NCBI RefSeq assembly: GCF_024721315.2 | Contig: NZ_JANFAK020000014.1 | Coordinates: forward strand, 1 to 64,000 | Source: Streptomyces sp. Isolate_45 | Lineage (GTDB): Bacteria > Actinomycetota > Actinomycetes > Streptomycetales > Streptomycetaceae | Length of the DNA: 64,000 bases | Reading direction: 5' to 3' | In this document: positions 3,932 through 56,319 of the stretch, piece after piece | Numbering within the stretch: the stretch's first letter is position 1 | Layout of the letters: every line of letters starts with the position of its first letter | Notes under the pieces: model-generated | Told to the model about the DNA's origin: nothing | The model's input: the letters and a program-made list of their open reading frames with translations, nothing else | The model's database searches: none | Made by a program: the position numbers and the translations under genes

Positions 3932-5992
3932 ATGACGGCCACCGCCCCCGCCCCTTCCCCAGCCCGGGTCCGCATCACGGCACTCCTGCCGCGGCTCGCG
4001 CTGGTCCTCGCAGCCCTGCTGGCAACACTGTTCACCGCGGCCGCACCGGCCACGGCACACGCCGCACTCACCGCGAGCGACCCGCAGGACGGGGCGGTGG
4101 TCGCCACGGCACCCGCCCAGGTCACCCTCTCCTTCTCGGAGCAGGTCGCCATGGGCGACGACTCCATCCGCGTCATGGACCCTCAGGGCAGACGAGTGGA
4201 CACCGGCGAGCTCCGCGACATGTGCAGCGGCTCGGTCATCCGGTACGGCACCGCGCTGCACGCCGGCCTGCCCAACGGCACCTACACCGTCGCCTGGCAG
4301 GCCGTGTCCGCCGACAGCCACCCGATCTCCGGCGCCTTCACCTTCTCCATCGGCGCCCCCTCGGCCACCGCCGTCTCCCTGCCCACCCAACAGGCGGGCG
4401 GCGGACCCGTCGGCATCGCCTACGGGATCGCCCGGTACGCCGCCTACGCCGGGTTCACCGTCCTCGTCGGTGGCGCCGCCTTCATCCTGATGTGCTGGCG
4501 CCGCGGGTCCGCGGAACGGTCGCTGCAGAAGCTCGTCCTGCGCGGCTGGGTCACCCTCACCGCGGCAACCCTGGCGATGCTGGCGCTCCGCAACCCGTAC
4601 ACGGGCTCGGGCAAGTTCGCCGACGTCTTCGACCTCGACGGGCTGCGAGCCGTGCTGGAGACCAAGACCGGCGCCTCGTTCGTCTCCCGGCTGCTGCTCC
4701 TCGGCGCCGCCGCGCTGTTCGTCGCCGTGCTCTTCGGGGCGTACGCACGCCATCAGCAGGCGTCGGGTTCCGGGGAAGAGGATCAGGCCGGGGAGGACAC
4801 CAAGCAGACGAGCGACCTGGCCTTCGGGCTCGGCATCGGTGGAGCCGTCGTGGCCGCCGGCATCGCCGCGACCTGGGCCCTGTCCGAGCACGCCTCCACC
4901 GGCATCCAGCCCGGCATCGCGATGCCGGCCGACATCCTCCACCTGCTGGCCGTCGCCGCCTGGCTCGGCGGTCTCACCGCACTGCTGGTCGCCCTGTACA
5001 AGGTGCCGGACATCGAGCGGGACGCCGTCCGGCGCTTCTCCAAGGTCGCCTTCGTCAGCGTCGTGGTCCTCGTCGTCACCGGCGTCTACCAGTCCTGGCG
5101 TCAGCTCGGCAGCTGGTCGGCCCTCACCGGCACCAGCTACGGCCGACTGCTGATCATCAAGGTGGGGCTGGTCGCCGTACTCCTCGGCATCGCCTACCTC
5201 TCACGGGAGTGGACCGCCCGACTCGCGGACGGGCAGGCCACGGCCACCGCCGACGAGCCGATCGGGGCCCTCACGGGGAAGGCCGTTTCACGTGAAACGG
5301 CGAGCGATGTTTCACGTGGAACGAGCCCGGCGGCCTCTCCGGAAGCGACCAGTGACGTTCCGCGGGGAACGAGCAGCGATGTTTCACGTGAAACGCACGC
5401 AGCCCCCGAAGCCGCCGACCCGCGGCGGGCCGCCCAGCTCGCCCGTCAGCACGCCGCTCGTGAGAAGGCGCGCGAGCACCAGGTGCGCGACGCCGACCCC
5501 GTCCGGGGCGGCCTGCGTCGGTCCGTTCTCGCCGAGGCGGCGGTGGCCGTGGCCCTGCTCGCCGTCACCACCGTCCTGACCAGCACGGAGCCGGGACGCG
5601 CCGTGGAGCAGGAGGCGGGCAGGGGATCGGCCTCCACCGCAGTGCCCAACCGGCCCATCAAGATCACCCTGCCCTTCGAAACCGGCGGCCAGAACGGCAA
5701 GGGCGCCGTACGGCTGGAGCTCGACCCGGGCCGGGTCGGCGCCAACACCCTCCACCTGTGGGCGGAGGACCTGGGCGGCAGGCCCCTCGACCTGCCGGAG
5801 ATCAAGGTCTCCTTCACCCTCCCCGCCAAGGAGATCGGCCCGCTGCCGCTCGTCCCGGACCGTTCCGGTCCCGGACACTGGACCGCGTCCGGGGTACAGC
5901 TGCCGCTGACGGGTGAATGGCGCATCGACGTGACCGTCCGCACCTCCGACATCGACCAGACGACCGTCCAGAAGAACGTGAAGATCGGCTGA
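3932..5992 (+). CDS. CopC-CopD fusion copper transport protein with parS-encoded linker
   Basis: This is a 686-residue membrane protein of the YcnJ type. A signal peptide ends at about residue 42, and the mature protein would start HAALTASDPQDG, so His1 of the CopC Cu(II) site is in place. The CopC domain runs to about 145. The CopD membrane region with about eight helices covers 165-430. A hydrophilic linker (452-510) follows, then one more helix (about 530-548) and a C-terminal beta-rich domain (560-686). The linker holds five 8-residue repeats (VSRETASD, VSRGTSPA and variants), each encoded by a parS site or a decayed copy (5285-5404). The family imports copper across the cytoplasmic membrane or passes it to periplasmic enzymes. 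The DyP peroxidase gene starts 5 bp after its stop, so the two are co-transcribed. Confidence 0.93.
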   Translation: MTATAPAPSPARVRITALLPRLALVLAALLATLFTAAAPATAHAALTASDPQDGAVVATAPAQVTLSFSEQVAMGDDSIRVMDPQGRRVDTGELRDMCSGSVIRYGTALHAGLPNGTYTVAWQAVSADSHPISGAFTFSIGAPSATAVSLPTQQAGGGPVGIAYGIARYAAYAGFTVLVGGAAFILMCWRRGSAERSLQKLVLRGWVTLTAATLAMLALRNPYTGSGKFADVFDLDGLRAVLETKTGASFVSRLLLLGAAALFVAVLFGAYARHQQASGSGEEDQAGEDTKQTSDLAFGLGIGGAVVAAGIAATWALSEHASTGIQPGIAMPADILHLLAVAAWLGGLTALLVALYKVPDIERDAVRRFSKVAFVSVVVLVVTGVYQSWRQLGSWSALTGTSYGRLLIIKVGLVAVLLGIAYLSREWTARLADGQATATADEPIGALTGKAVSRETASDVSRGTSPAASPEATSDVPRGTSSDVSRETHAAPEAADPRRAAQLARQHAAREKAREHQVRDADPVRGGLRRSVLAEAAVAVALLAVTTVLTSTEPGRAVEQEAGRGSASTAVPNRPIKITLPFETGGQNGKGAVRLELDPGRVGANTLHLWAEDLGGRPLDLPEIKVSFTLPAKEIGPLPLVPDRSGPGHWTASGVQLPLTGEWRIDVTVRTSDIDQTTVQKNVKIG
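5285..5404. repeat. Five-unit 24-bp array of parS and parS-like sites inside the CopC-CopD gene
   Basis: Perfect parS 14-mers lie at 5285-5298 and 5381-5394, and the one-base variant gtttcacgtggaac lies at 5309-5322. Decayed copies sit at 5333 and 5357 (gttccgcggggaac). All five start exactly 24 bp apart, and each unit encodes eight residues beginning VSRET, VSRGT, ASPEA, VPRGT or VSRET. ParB binds parS near the origin to build the segregation complex. The exact 24-bp phase and the parallel amino-acid repeat show that the array arose by tandem duplication of one unit within the reading frame. Confidence 0.93.
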
Positions 5993-5997
5993 GCAGC

Positions 5998-7281
5998 GTG
6001 ACCGACAGCATCCGGAGCAACCCGGACATCGAGATTTCCCGGCGCAGGCTGCTGGGCACCGTGGGCGCCGCCGGCGCCGCCGGACTCGCCCTCGGCGCCA
6101 CGGGCGGGGCCCTTGCCCACGCCTCCGTCGCCGACTCCCCGGCCGGTGCCCCCGGCGCGGCCGGGACGCTCGCCTCCCTGGGCGCCACCGAGGTGGCCTT
6201 CCACGGGGACCACCAGGCCGGGATCACCACCCCGCTCCAGGCCAAGGGCCATGTCCTCGCCTTCGACCTGGCGCCCGGCGCCGGCCGTACCGAGGCCGCC
6301 GCGCTGCTGCGCCGCTGGTCGGACACCGCGCGGCAACTGATGGCGGGTGCGGCCGCCCCGACCGCCGACACCGGGATCGCCCTCGACGCGGGCCCGTCCT
6401 CCCTCACGCTGACCTTCGGGTTCGGGCATTCCTTCTTCGAGCGCACCGGCCTGACCGCCCGCCGCCCCGCGGCCCTCGATCCGCTGCCGGACTTCTCCTC
6501 GGACCGGCTCGATGCCCAGCGCAGCAACGGCGACCTGTGGGTCCAGATCGGCGCGGACGACGGACTCGTCGCGTTCCACGCCCTACGGGCCGTGCAGAAG
6601 GACGCCGGGGACGCGGCGCGCGTGCGCTGGCAGATGAACGGCTTCAACCGGTCCCCGGGCGCCACCGCGAAGCCGATGACAGCACGGAACCTGATGGGCC
6701 AGGTCGACGGCACCGGGAACCCGAAGCCCTCGGAGCCCGACTTCGACAAGCGGATCTTCGTGCCGGATACCGGCCCGGGGCCCACCGAGCACGCCTGGAT
6801 GGCCGGGGGGTCGTACGCCGTCGTGCGCCGGATCCGGATGCTGCTCGACGACTGGGAGAAGCAGTCCTTGGGCGACCAGGAGCGGGTCATCGGCCGGAGG
6901 AAGGCCGATGGGGCCCCGCTGACCGGTGGCACCGAGACCACGGAGATGGCCCTGGACAAGATCGGCGGCGACGGCAAGCCCGTCATCGCCTCCAATGCCC
7001 ACGCCCGGATCTCGGCGCCGGAGCAGAACGGCGGGGCCGCCATGCTGCGGCGGCCGTTCTCCTTCCACGACGGGATCGCCCCCGACGGCGCTCCGGACGC
7101 CGGGTTGCTGTTCATCTGCTGGCAGGCCGATCCGCTGCGCGGCTTCGTCCCCGTTCAGCGCAAGCTCGACCGGGGGGACGCCCTGTCCGCGTTCATCCGG
7201 CACGAGTCCAGCGGGCTGTACGCCGTGCCGCCGGGCCCGCGTGCCGGGGAGTACGTCGGACAGCGGCTGCTCGAAGGGTGA
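5998..7281 (+). CDS. dtpA: Dye-decolourising peroxidase, Tat-exported (DtpA/EfeB family)
   Basis: The 427-residue protein starts with a twin-arginine signal (SRRRLLGTVG, about residues 15-24) followed by a hydrophobic Ala/Gly stretch, so it is exported folded with its haem. The DyP signature GQVDGTGNP, with the distal catalytic Asp, lies near residue 236. The proximal haem His is in NAHARIS at about 334, and the conserved RRPFSFHDG block follows. The GTG at 5998 gives the signal peptide directly and sits 5 bp after the preceding stop. In S. lividans the DyP peroxidase of this copper cluster is needed for maturation of the copper radical oxidase GlxA and for development on glucose. The neighbours here are the same, so I use that name. 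EfeB-type iron uptake is less likely because no efeU or efeO is present. Confidence 0.9.
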   Translation: MTDSIRSNPDIEISRRRLLGTVGAAGAAGLALGATGGALAHASVADSPAGAPGAAGTLASLGATEVAFHGDHQAGITTPLQAKGHVLAFDLAPGAGRTEAAALLRRWSDTARQLMAGAAAPTADTGIALDAGPSSLTLTFGFGHSFFERTGLTARRPAALDPLPDFSSDRLDAQRSNGDLWVQIGADDGLVAFHALRAVQKDAGDAARVRWQMNGFNRSPGATAKPMTARNLMGQVDGTGNPKPSEPDFDKRIFVPDTGPGPTEHAWMAGGSYAVVRRIRMLLDDWEKQSLGDQERVIGRRKADGAPLTGGTETTEMALDKIGGDGKPVIASNAHARISAPEQNGGAAMLRRPFSFHDGIAPDGAPDAGLLFICWQADPLRGFVPVQRKLDRGDALSAFIRHESSGLYAVPPGPRAGEYVGQRLLEG

Positions 7282-11065: not shown

Positions 11066-11125
11066 GTTTCACGTGAAACAGGGGTCGTGTTCCACGCGGA
11101 ACGCGGGTCATGTTTCACGTGAAAC
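11066..11125. other. parS cluster: two perfect sites and one decayed site, 23-bp spacing
   Basis: Perfect gtttcacgtgaaac copies lie at 11066-11079 and 11112-11125. Between them, gttccacgcggaac at 11089-11102 is a decayed copy in exact 23-bp phase. The right-hand site overlaps the last codons of the rhomboid-like gene and encodes its terminal VSRET. Confidence 0.92.
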
Positions 11126-11743
11126 GGGGTGGCGGGTGAGCGGCCAGGCAAGCAGTCCGACGGCGAGCGAGATGGCGTGGCCGAGGTCGGTGAAACTGCC
11201 GTCGCTGAGCAGCGGGACGCCGAAGAAGGCGACCGCGCCGGCGAGGTAGAACCATCTCCAGGGATGGGGCAGCCGGTAGGTGAGCACGCCCACGGAGGCT
11301 GCCAGGCCGTAGCTGACGCCGATGTCGACGACGTGGGTCATGCTGTGCGGCGCGCGGTGGTCCTGAATGGCCATCAGGAGGACCTTCTGGCTGACCAAGG
11401 TCGCCGTGATGTGGGCGGTCGCGACGATCAGGAGCCAGCGCACGGTGCCGAGCCAGCGCTCGACGGGGGCGTGGAAGCACTCGAAGAGCAGGGCGTAGAG
11501 GGCGAGCGATGCCGGGTTCTCGATCCAGAACGCGCTGCTGAGCAAGGCGCGGATGGGGTGCTGGACGAGTTCGTGGATGTTGCTGCTGTTGCGGTGGAGC
11601 AGCACGTGTTCGACCCGGTCCGGGGCGATCACGACGATGACGCTGGTGACGGCGATGATCAGCAGCCAGATGTGCGTCCCGGGGGAGGACCGTATCCAGG
11701 ACCGCAAGGGTCTGGACGGCTCCGGCCCGGTGTGCTCGATCAT
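11108..11743 (-). CDS. Rhomboid-like membrane protein, probably catalytically inactive
   Basis: The 211-residue protein has about six hydrophobic segments (for example WLLIIAVTSVIVVIA at 26-40 and WFYLAGAVAFFGVPLL near 172), arranged as in rhomboid proteins. Where an active rhomboid carries GxSG, this one has GVSYGLAASVG. The C-terminal HAISLAVGLL resembles the second catalytic helix. The serine-site change makes protease activity doubtful. The last five residues, VSRET, are encoded by a parS site, so the ParB-binding sequence dictates the C-terminus. The ATG is at 11741-11743. It is separated from the ABC permease gene to its right by 84 bp on the same strand. Confidence 0.72.
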   Translation of the reverse strand: MIEHTGPEPSRPLRSWIRSSPGTHIWLLIIAVTSVIVVIAPDRVEHVLLHRNSSNIHELVQHPIRALLSSAFWIENPASLALYALLFECFHAPVERWLGTVRWLLIVATAHITATLVSQKVLLMAIQDHRAPHSMTHVVDIGVSYGLAASVGVLTYRLPHPWRWFYLAGAVAFFGVPLLSDGSFTDLGHAISLAVGLLAWPLTRHPVSRET

Positions 11744-33200: not shown

Positions 33201-33798
33201 AGTGTCCCGACAGCCGCGACAGCAGCCGCCACTGTCGGTCCATCCGGGACTGGGTGGCCATGCCGATCAGGATCATGAAGAGGGGGATCAGCGGCAGGGT
33301 GACCACGATGATGGCCGCCGATACCCAGTCCTCCGTGACGATCCGGGCGAGGACCGCCACCGGTACGACGACGGCGAGCCCGAGCTGGGGCAGGTAGCGG
33401 GCGAAGTAGTCGTCGAGGGCGTCCACTCCCCGGGTGGCCAGGGCCACCAGCGACCCGGTCCGCCGGCTGTCGGTGGCGCCGGGCCCCAGGTCGGCTGCGC
33501 GGTCCAGCAGCCGCACCCGCAGCTCGGACTTGACCGCCGCCCCGGCACGGTGCGCGGCCAGTTCCGTGAGCCAGGCGACCAGACCGCGTCCGAGGGCCAC
33601 CGCTGCGAGGAGGAGCAGCGGGATGCGCAGCTCACCGGCGCCGAGCCCCTGTTCGAAAGCGCCGACCACGATCTCGGCGATGAGCATCGCCTGACCGACG
33701 ACCAGCCCCGCTCCGGCGAGCCCGAGGAGCACCACCGCTCCCAGGAAGAGGCGGGTGGATCGGGCGTACCGCAGCAGGCGCGGGTCGATCGGTTTCAC
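30229..33798 (-). CDS. cydCD: CydD-CydC fusion, ABC exporter for thiols needed for cytochrome bd
   Basis: This 1189-residue polypeptide fuses the CydD and CydC halves, each with six helices and an ATPase, as in Streptomyces. Walker A motifs are GPSGAGKSTLLN (about 370) and GPSGSGKTTLAQ (about 975). Signatures are LSAGQRQRLALARAF and ISGGQRQRLALARAL. A low-complexity AAGPAGP linker joins the halves near 555-610. It exports reduced thiols (glutathione and cysteine in E. coli) needed to assemble the bd oxidase haem sites. The ATG at 33807 lies next to GAGGAG with no spacing, and its codons 2-5 (FHVK) come from a parS site. The GTG at 33796-33798 sits 9 bases after GAGGAG, so I prefer it. It is last in the cydA-cydB-cydCD unit. 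Confidence 0.95.
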   Translation of the reverse strand: MKPIDPRLLRYARSTRLFLGAVVLLGLAGAGLVVGQAMLIAEIVVGAFEQGLGAGELRIPLLLLAAVALGRGLVAWLTELAAHRAGAAVKSELRVRLLDRAADLGPGATDSRRTGSLVALATRGVDALDDYFARYLPQLGLAVVVPVAVLARIVTEDWVSAAIIVVTLPLIPLFMILIGMATQSRMDRQWRLLSRLSGHFLDVVAGLPTLKVFGRAKAQAESIRKITDDYRQATMRTLRIAFLSSFALELLATLSVALVAVTIGMRLVHGELDLYTGLVILILAPEAYLPLRQVGAQYHAAAEGLAAAEEIFEVLETEPPATGGGVRVPDSGLRIEFDGVEVRYEGRSASSPGPVSLVVEPGECVALTGPSGAGKSTLLNVLLGFVTPTAGRVRIGAVDQAELSLEEWRERIAWVPQRPHLFAGSIAENVRLARPGACDEDVESALRDAGAWEFVAALPGGIRTSLGEGGVGLSAGQRQRLALARAFLADRPVLLLDEPTAALDGETEAAVVDAVRRLAVGRTVLLVVHRPALLAVADRVVAVGEGTPGTAGPAGPAAGSVAPAAGIAGSEAAPPRAQAPVADPGEWILGPTSERVAAGGPTRTGGGDPLSRVRAAAAAWQGRFRLGLLLGALAVGCGVGLLAVSGWLISRASEQPPVLYLMVAVTATRAFGLGRAVFRYAERLVSHDAVLRMLADLRVSVYRRLELIAPAGLREQRRGDLLSRLVADADALQDYWLRWLLPVGTAVLVGTGSVAFTAWLLPEAGAVLAVGLLAAGVVVPLISGACARRAERRLAPARGELATRAADLLTGTAELTVAGALAGRKGRVRESDGALTRIASRGAFATGLGGGLSALVCGLTVVFAALAGAAAVAGGRLSGVAMAVVVLTPLAAFEAVSGLPLAVQYRQRVRRSAERVYEVLDAPVPVIEPAEPLAAPASPFPLRLTGLAARHPGQERDALHGMDLTLEAGRRIAVVGPSGSGKTTLAQVLLRFLDPSDGTYTLGGIDVRALDGDDVRRTVGLCAQDAHLFDSSVRENLRLARTGASEAELREALAAARLLEWVDGLPDGPDTLVGEHGERISGGQRQRLALARALLADFPVLVLDEPAEHLDLATADALTADLLAATEGRTTVLITHRLAGLEAVDEVLVLDRGAVVQRGAYAELAGVEGPLRTLLDREREADGLRAGRG

Positions 33799-33805
33799 GT
33801 GAAAC
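33792..33805. other. parS site overlapping the cydCD start
   Basis: A perfect gtttcacgtgaaac sits across the start of cydCD and in the gap to cydB. ParB bound here could block ribosome access only indirectly, by affecting transcription, since the site is DNA. It is the only lone parS in the window. Confidence 0.92.
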
Positions 33806-42024: not shown

Positions 42025-42265
42025 GGAGGAACCGGTCGCGGCCCAGCGCCGGTTGAGGTCCTCGGCATCGAGCATGTGCCGGAACTTCCCGCGAACGGCG
42101 ACCGTGCTCGCGGCGTCCGCGCCCGCGCAGTACGACGACTCGTCCGGCCGTCAGCGGAACGGCGCATCCGGTGGGGCCAACTTGGCCGTCCGCGAGGGCC
42201 ACTCGGGTCCGCGCTCCGGCGTGCCTCGCCCGCCGGCACCAGCCCCGTCCCTAGGGTCAGCGGCC

Positions 42266-43417
42266 GTGAAGCCGACGATTTGCCTGTGCATGATCGTGAA
42301 GAACGAATCCGCCGTCATCGAGCGCTGCCTCAAGTCGGTACGGGGGCTCATCGACACCTGGGCCATCTCCGACACGGGATCCACGGACGGAACCCGGCAA
42401 CTGATCCGAACCGCCCTGGAAGGAATCCCCGGGGAACTCCACGAGGAACCATGGGTCGACTTCGGGCACAACCGCAGCCTCAACATCAGGCACGGTCTCG
42501 GCAAGGCCGACTACGTGCTGCTCCTCGACGCCGACCACGTCCTGCGCCCCCAAGGTCCGCTGCCCGCCCTCACCGCGGATTCGTACATGCTCCGCCACGA
42601 GGGCGCGACCGAGTACCGCATCAAGCGCCTGGTCCGTGCCGATCTCCCCTGGCGGTACGAAGGCGTCACCCACGAGTACCTGACCTGCGACCGTCGCGAC
42701 GAGAACGACCGGCGACCGGGCCTCCAGGAGAACCTCGACGCACTCGTCATCGAGGACTATGCCGACGGGGGCTCCCGACACGACAAGTTCGAGCGGGACG
42801 CGCGACTGCTCGGCGCTGAACTGCAGCGCGACCCCTCCAACACCCGGACCGTCTTCTACCTGGCGCAGACCCTGCGGGACATGGGCGACACCGCGCCCTC
42901 GATCAAGCTCTACGAACGCCGCGCCGGCATGGGCGGCTGGGGCGAGGAGGTCTACTACGCACTGCTCCAGGTCGGTGTCCTGCACGGCGAGTCCGGTGAC
43001 TGGCCGGCCGCGATGGACGCCCTCTCGCGAGCCTGGGACTCACGCCCCGGCAGGCTGGAAGCCTGCTACGAACTCGCCGCACGGCTCAGGATGCTCGGCC
43101 GGTACCACTCCGCCCATGCCGTCACCGCAGCCGTCCTGAACCGTCCGGCACCGGACGACCTGCTCTTCGTACAGCCCTGGGTGTACCGGTGGGGCCTTCT
43201 CTTCGAGCACTCGATCAACGCCTACTGGGTCGGCGACATGGGCGCCTCCCTCAGCGCCTGCGACCGGTTGCTCGCACTCCCCGACCTGCCGGAGGTGTAC
43301 CGGCGCCAGACGGAGGACAACCGGGCCTTCGCCGTCGCCGCCCTCCGTCGCTCGTCCCCGTCCGTTTCACGTGAAACACCCGCTCCCGTTTCACGTGAAA
43401 CGACCGCCCTCATGTGA
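42266..43417 (+). CDS. Glycosyltransferase family 2 with TPR-like C-terminus and parS-encoded tail
   Basis: The 383-residue cytoplasmic glycosyltransferase has CLCMIVKNESAVIERCL, SDTGSTDGTRQLI and YVLLLDADHVL, the GT-A fold metal and nucleotide-sugar sites (DxD-like LDADH). The C-terminal half contains TPR-like helices (AMDALSRAWDSRPGRLEACY). The tail VSRETPAPVSRETTALM is encoded by two parS sites 24 bp apart, the same 8-residue period as in the CopC-CopD linker. GTG at 42266 follows TAGGGT by 9 bases with no ribosome-binding site, so it is probably leaderless. The 241 bp between it and the previous gene hold nothing that I can call with confidence. Confidence 0.85.
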   Translation: MKPTICLCMIVKNESAVIERCLKSVRGLIDTWAISDTGSTDGTRQLIRTALEGIPGELHEEPWVDFGHNRSLNIRHGLGKADYVLLLDADHVLRPQGPLPALTADSYMLRHEGATEYRIKRLVRADLPWRYEGVTHEYLTCDRRDENDRRPGLQENLDALVIEDYADGGSRHDKFERDARLLGAELQRDPSNTRTVFYLAQTLRDMGDTAPSIKLYERRAGMGGWGEEVYYALLQVGVLHGESGDWPAAMDALSRAWDSRPGRLEACYELAARLRMLGRYHSAHAVTAAVLNRPAPDDLLFVQPWVYRWGLLFEHSINAYWVGDMGASLSACDRLLALPDLPEVYRRQTEDNRAFAVAALRRSSPSVSRETPAPVSRETTALM

Positions 43418-56179: not shown

Positions 56180-56319
56180 GTTTCACGTGAAACAGCGTGT
56201 TTCACGTGAAACGCCGTGAGTCCACGTGAGGAACGGCTGTGTTTCACGTGAAACCAGCGGCGTTTCACGTGAAACGTGGCTGCCGTGCCCCACCTTCGAT
56301 GGGCGGTTTCACGTGAAAC
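56180..56319. other. parS cluster: five perfect sites plus a decayed copy
   Basis: Perfect parS 14-mers lie at 56180-56193, 56199-56212, 56241-56254, 56262-56275 and 56306-56319. A decayed copy (gtccacgtgaggaac) is near 56220. This is the densest non-coding group in the window, spanning the promoter gap between the HAD-IB and GNAT genes. Confidence 0.95.

Follow-up and report, generated by a model that had tools for sequence, protein, structure and literature searches.

In-frame parS sites in the linker of a Streptomyces CopC-CopD membrane protein and a near-parS alternative in the adjacent efeB gene

In Streptomyces sp. Isolate_45, copies of parS, the centromere sequence at which ParB is loaded, are written into the coding sequence of a membrane protein. 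The question raised by this locus is whether these copies are kept for the sake of the protein or for the sake of the DNA, or whether they have been carried along without any function.

A parS array in the copCD linker

The stretch of DNA that was analysed (the window) comprised positions 1-64,000 of contig NZ_JANFAK020000014.1 of this strain, and all positions given below are window positions. These 64,000 nucleotides contained 22 matches to parS (GTTTCACGTGAAAC) with three or fewer mismatches, 19 of which were perfect; the expected number was 0.95, and a total of 22 was reached in none of 100 shuffles. The copies in the copCD gene were located as follows.

3932..5992, + strand: copCD fusion, 686 aa (ORF; Pfam CopC, 2.8e-26, and CopD, 9.7e-19; AlphaFold2 model)
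5285..5404, + strand: five in-frame 24-bp units in the copCD linker, residues 452-491
5285..5298, unstranded: unit 1, perfect parS (VSRET), 0 mismatches
5309..5322, unstranded: unit 2, parS-like (VSRGT), 1 mismatch, variant GTTTCACGTGGAAC
5333..5346, unstranded: unit 3, possibly a decayed parS (weak), 6 mismatches, P 0.005
5357..5370, unstranded: unit 4, decayed parS, 4 mismatches, P 0.00016
5381..5394, unstranded: unit 5, perfect parS (VSRET), 0 mismatches

The initial annotation had read this segment as five 24-bp parS repeats in a CopC-CopD membrane protein, encoding VSRETASD, VSRGTSPA, ASPEATSD, VPRGTSSD and VSRETHAA, respectively. The host protein was borne out by the presence of both Pfam domains in the 686-residue ORF, the five units were confirmed with the numbers of mismatches listed above, and the translations proved to be exact. 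The variant seen in unit 2 was also found elsewhere in the Isolate_45 genome, several times beside other parS.

It had also been proposed that the imperfect copies arose by duplication in place and have since decayed. The linker codons were shuffled 50,000 times, while the codons that spell parS in units 1, 2 and 5 were kept in place. Unit 4 was equalled at its own phase in 0.016% of these shuffles and unit 3 in 0.48%, and in none of the 50,000 were both equalled jointly in phase; the five-unit reading is therefore more than chance. Unit 4 is clearly the relic of a decayed parS, and for this unit the proposal is well supported; for unit 3, taken alone, the case is weak. A close relative sharing the five-unit array was not found among 100 genomes, 76 of which gave a match, the best identity over the linker region being 71%.

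An AlphaFold2 model of CopCD, based on 31 aligned sequences (mean pLDDT 70, pTM 0.55), placed the CopC domain first, followed by the CopD membrane part, the disordered linker, the last membrane helix and a C-terminal beta domain. The pLDDT value was below 50 at all but one of residues 436-492, a segment that includes the array, and the linker is predicted to be disordered on the basis of this model. Seven long helices resembling membrane spans separate the CopC domain from the linker, which is followed by one more (residues 523-550); with the CopC domain outside, this number of helices should place the linker in the cytoplasm. The description of the array as centromere DNA inside a gene for an exported domain therefore holds for copCD as a gene, but the exported parts are the flanking domains and the linker itself would be cytoplasmic. 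Since it is predicted to be disordered, the linker would be expected to tolerate parS.

Conservation and codon usage of the linker site

Orthologues of copCD were obtained in two sets. The first consisted of 53 named loci, including L014 (Actinobacteria bacterium), and is skewed toward the clade of the window, since the scan was queried with peptides of the window's protein. The second was an even draw across the genus and comprised 61 genomes, including Isolate_45. Fifty-eight of these were used (50 fetched, seven from the search itself, and the Isolate_45 genome); G001, G010 and G050 were left out, as they had no usable orthologue spanning the linker. Removal of a second copy of the Isolate_45 gene and of four genes identical to others left 107 distinct genes. 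The ends of the linker were not located automatically in four genes, none of which has a linker site.

An alignment of copCD orthologues, which the initial annotation had suggested as a check, revealed a linker parS with no more than one mismatch in 37 of the 107 genes. The site was perfect in 36 genes and had one mismatch in L019; among the named loci it was present in 33 of 53. In a CopCD tree from which the linker had been removed, the genes with a linker site formed one clade (support 100; one change), and a parS in the linker has been kept by all 37 members. Due to this single origin, the 37 genes are not independent observations. One copy with no more than one mismatch was found in 26 genes, two copies in nine and three in two, including the gene in the window, and all 50 copies were in one reading frame.

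The 13 spacings between these copies were 21, 24 (five times), 33, 45 (twice), 54, 66, 72 and 96 bases. The 24-bp spacing (5 of 13) was not shared by the relatives in general, and the five-unit array was found only in the Isolate_45 genome. Linker length ranged from 31 to 70 residues across the clade, and the offset of the site within the linker from 21 to 165 bases. Since the spacings, the linker length and the start of the site all vary, the conserved feature is one parS somewhere in the linker and not the 24-bp array. From these sequence comparisons, the array is best regarded as a local embellishment of a conserved single parS.

One explanation is that VSRET is conserved as a peptide of the cytoplasmic loop, such as a docking motif, and that the parS letters are incidental. 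An in-frame perfect parS, and hence VSRET, was indeed present in 36 of the 37 clade members, with VPRET in L019. However, no VSRET encoded by a sequence more than one mismatch away from the parS 14-mer was found in the 107 CopCD proteins. The nearest exceptions were VPRGT in the window and an additional ASRET in L002, which has three mismatches and accompanies two perfect copies. The comparison of orthologues that the initial annotation had offered as a way to refute its reading thus came out in favour of that reading. The variable start of the site within the linker also argues against a protein motif.

Codon usage gave a similar result. In the same genes, the background frequencies of the four parS codons were 2.8%, 1.3%, 8.5% and 20%, and the parS codon set was expected at approximately 6e-6 per copy. 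Aligning the 37 genes gave 366 near-invariant degenerate residues, 67 of which kept one identical codon; the only A- or T-ending codons among these 67 were GTT, TCA, CGT and GAA, the adjacent parS codons. The synonymous flanks also tracked the extended 16-bp parS (tGTTTCACGTGAAACa). Among the 47 perfect 14-mers in 36 clade genes, T was present at -1 in 45, A at +15 in 38, and both, giving the full 16-bp form, in 37. The Thr codon at parS was ACA in 38 of the 47 copies, whereas ACA accounted for 36 of 2072 Thr codons in the remainder of these genes, and the codon before parS was GAT in 35 of 47, compared to 79 of 1203 Asp codons elsewhere. The extended form was thus seen in the clade overall, but the two perfect copies in the window fell short of it; unit 1 is flanked by C and G, and there is a G at +15 of unit 5.

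These data show that the linker parS is under selection as DNA, beyond the needs of the protein, and agree with the earlier suggestion that DNA-binding needs fix part of the protein. With rare codons spelling parS and its flanks in this way, we consider it extremely improbable that a docking peptide accounts for the site. A second explanation is a pause in translation between two membrane helices, caused by the codons that end in A or T, with the identity to parS being secondary. In its favour, GTT, TCA and ACA are seldom used in these genes, and the last membrane helix is encoded downstream of the site. However, many codon sets would serve for a pause and yet the exact palindrome has been kept, and both the related site in efeB and the parS at the end of a rhomboid-like gene (see below) are found without such a setting. 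The chance that a translational pause is the correct explanation appears very small. Both readings were rejected on the codon evidence.

It is also conceivable that the linker parS is a functionless, hitch-hiking repeat that has been carried along in one clade. A single origin would be expected in this case, and parS clusters are common in the Isolate_45 genome, which contains 43 perfect parS and seven with one mismatch; 26 of the perfect copies are on this 95-kb contig. Against this, the site has been kept by 37 of 37 clade members despite strong variation in the length and sequence of the linker, and most near-invariant residues elsewhere in the protein vary in codon. Retention by chance is therefore considered to be very unlikely.

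The linker sites are very probably genuine parS of the chromosomal ParABS system, serving the loading of ParB-CTP, that were gained once in a tolerant coding region and have been kept as DNA. The parS would have arisen a single time, in frame, in the common ancestor of the clade to which S. lavendulae, S. virginiae and S. katrae belong, and would have been retained by selection on DNA while the surrounding linker changed freely. It would sometimes have been multiplied, probably by in-frame duplication, and Isolate_45 would now have five units, at least one of which is decaying. ParB-CTP clamps are reported to load at parS and to slide to neighbouring DNA (PMC12511625), and they would do so inside copCD at the linker parS. 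The linker site probably acts as one of the outlying ParB loading points, from which ParB would spread a few kb; a spread of 2.5-3 kb is reported for S. venezuelae (PMC12511625). As judged from sequence, ParB would be expected to bind the linker parS, and this binding may matter for segregation.

The near-parS site in efeB

The gene that follows copCD, and the place within it that is discussed below, were located as follows.

5998..7281, + strand: efeB (deferrochelatase/Dyp-type peroxidase), next gene after copCD
6198..6211, unstranded: place in Isolate_45 efeB that corresponds to the parS-like site of other species, here CTTCCACGGGGACC, 5 mismatches

A near-parS was found in efeB approximately 0.2-0.36 kb past the copCD stop, often in orthologues without a linker parS. 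It was present with no more than one mismatch in 38 of the 107 loci, as ATGTTTCACGGGAAACA in 32, as GTTCCACGTGAAAC in four and as a perfect parS in two. Of the three reading frames of parS, one is closed by TGA and two are open, giving VSRET, which is the frame read in the linker, and FHVK, the frame read in efeB. All 38 efeB sites read F-H-G/V-K, preceded by Met in 37, and in six of them Val replaces Gly, which restores the centre of the palindrome. Phe was encoded by TTT in 34 of the 38 sites and Lys by AAA in all 38; in the part of efeB further downstream, TTT made up 3 of 590 Phe codons and AAA 21 of 396 Lys codons. In the 67 other readable efeB loci, the place of Met was occupied by A, P, T, S, V, D or G and that of His by H, R, E, Q, D, Y or L, and Lys was never found at its place. 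The efeB near-parS is thus constrained at the DNA level, as would be expected of a parS variant, and it fixes M-F-H-G/V-K at positions that vary elsewhere.

In a search of 392 Streptomyces genomes, the efeB-site pattern was found in 246 and the reversed pattern in none, and no genome row was seen with more than one match; the pattern was absent from the Isolate_45 genome in this search. The central mismatch of the common efeB form could lower its affinity for ParB. The half-sites GTTTCAC and GTTCCAC are reported to be bound by the ParBs of several species (PMC7022226), which makes binding of an efeB site with one mismatch plausible. In L061, which groups with the site-bearing L084, there is what looks like a decaying efeB site (GTTCCACGGGAGAC), with three mismatches and an AGA codon.

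A linker site without an efeB site was present in 36 of the 107 orthologues, an efeB site without a linker site in 38, neither site in 31, and both in none; the efeB site could not be scored in two loci, L064 and L030, the latter with a linker site. The two sites therefore occurred together in none of the 74 site-bearing loci that could be scored for both. In the even draw of 58 genomes, seven had a linker site, 29 had an efeB site, 21 had neither and one was unscored. Since the linker clade represents one event, this mutual exclusion is not statistically independent.

We tentatively raise the possibility that copCD-efeB is an address for the loading of ParB that has been kept in a large part of the genus, that the site turns over between the genes, and that, where the linker copy arose, the one in efeB was lost. 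The linker and efeB positions are 0.8-1.1 kb apart across genomes, a distance that is within the ParB spreading range and fits one address whose site changed genes, and the two sites may do the same job. The CopCD tree required four changes of the efeB label, and parsimony allows two separate gains, with an ancestor of the linker clade that had no site. The EfeB tree, from which the motif columns had been removed, required five changes of the label and grouped the linker clade with ten other rows, all with an efeB site, in a grouping without a support value. From the spacing of parS clusters on the 95-kb contig (approximately 7 kb), the chance that a new cluster would land within 1 kb of a lost one is estimated at about 1 in 4.

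Wider stretches, of approximately 19.5-20 kb, were available for 40 of the 61 drawn genomes; those of G008 (L161) and Isolate_45 (L181) were 15 kb. No parS with one mismatch or fewer was found in the 15-20 kb of the 20 genomes that had neither site. There were 13 genomes with an efeB site, of which 11 had no other parS in the stretch and two had another 5.7 kb upstream. In the seven genomes with a linker site, one or two further parS followed at a distance of 5.0-8.2 kb downstream, close to the rhomboid-like gene. This distribution would fit a shared address. A perfect parS was located 1306 bases past the copCD stop in L038, which has neither site and is one of 11 loci seen over shorter stretches; it is possibly a third position for the same address. 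With both sites absent from 31 of the 107 orthologues, the genus does not depend on a site at this address. Turnover at a shared address would rest on one event in one clade, the ancestor of which may or may not have had an efeB site, and for these reasons we regard it as possible but, on balance, doubtful.

Alternatively, ParB might act at this locus mainly by tuning the transcription of copCD-efeB and not in segregation. The linker and efeB sites share one gene pair, and the ParB of Pseudomonas aeruginosa is reported to repress genes beside the intergenic sites parS3 and parS4 (PMC7022226). However, the site is in the middle of a gene and not at a promoter, and the same 31 orthologues have neither site. 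Local regulation is therefore considered unlikely, and the loading of ParB at genuine parS sites remains the preferred explanation.

Other parS copies and known parS systems

The next parS cluster in the window, and the gene beside it, were located as follows.

11066..11125, unstranded: next parS cluster; the parS at 11112 encodes the C-terminal VSRET of the rhomboid-like gene product
11108-11743, - strand: rhomboid-like gene, parS at the 3' end

The rhomboid-like protein was identified in five of the seven linker genomes (L175, L177, L178, L179 and L181). It ends in VSRET in the window and in L178; in L177 and L179 the gene reads two parS in different frames (VSRET, then FHVKR) before its stop, and in L175 the parS starts only after the stop of the gene. 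Elsewhere in the window, a glycosyltransferase-2/TPR gene (42053-43417) has two in-frame VSRET at its end (VSRETPAPVSRETTALM, 43364-43401), with two more parS just beyond. The parS at 33792-33805 overlaps the predicted start of a cydDC fusion, the product of which would begin MFHVKP. Five perfect parS were found in 140 bases (56180-56319), upstream of and into a GNAT acetyltransferase ORF; since the longest ORF reads through three parS, the true start of this gene is probably further downstream. In the Isolate_45 genome as a whole, many neighbouring parS were 18-27 bases apart or approximately twice that distance (about two or four helix turns), and some were 32-35 or 54-55 bases apart. The in-gene spacings of 21 and 24 bases may be an in-frame version of this genome-wide spacing. 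The best ParB_N match in the genome was a parB-like gene (C55:87794-88072), which was taken as parB; it is on the same contig as copCD, approximately 82 kb from the linker site.

The copCD-efeB locus is a clean natural case of a bacterial centromere site whose sequence sets residues of unrelated proteins encoded by two adjacent genes, and it recurs in many species, with the efeB form in 246 of the 392 genomes searched. Because each state is specific to its clade and synonymous recoding could separate the two, it can be asked whether the cell requires a parS at a given address or merely enough parS. Conserved peptides in parS-rich regions, such as VSRET, FHVK and FHGK, can be the footprints of DNA sites and not protein motifs. 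If the site does turn over between the two genes, the centromere would dictate M-F-H-G/V-K in EfeB and VSRET in CopCD.

Twenty-three central parS and one near an end are reported for S. coelicolor (PMC4852455). For S. venezuelae, the same source reports 16 palindromes, with ChIP peaks almost all at parS, and a later report gives 17 bound sites (PMC12511625). In 20 closed streptomycete genomes, 11-65 parS were reported in each, 80% of which were to the right of oriC (PMC8743542). The copies described here resemble these chromosomal sites in having the same 14-16 bp palindrome and in being clustered in a parS-rich region with a parB-like gene. Unlike the parS of S. coelicolor and S. venezuelae, the copCD copies are deep in a coding gene and in frame. 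No description of the copCD or efeB sites was found in the titles and beginnings of abstracts among the listed matches of the literature searches; the site list of PMC8743542 may include some of them.

Intragenic parS are already known elsewhere, and what appears to be new here is the presence of the copCD linker copies and of the efeB alternative. Bacillus subtilis spo0J contains a parS. This site is likewise read as codons, but it is a single site in the parB gene itself, whereas copCD has an array in an unrelated membrane protein. In Caulobacter, parS within genes have been reported (PMC5815017), and there, as in copCD, centromere sites overlap coding sequence. In contrast to the Caulobacter sites, as far as these are described in that report, the copCD copies have been multiplied in frame in a loop predicted to be disordered, and in other genomes there is an alternative site in the adjacent gene.
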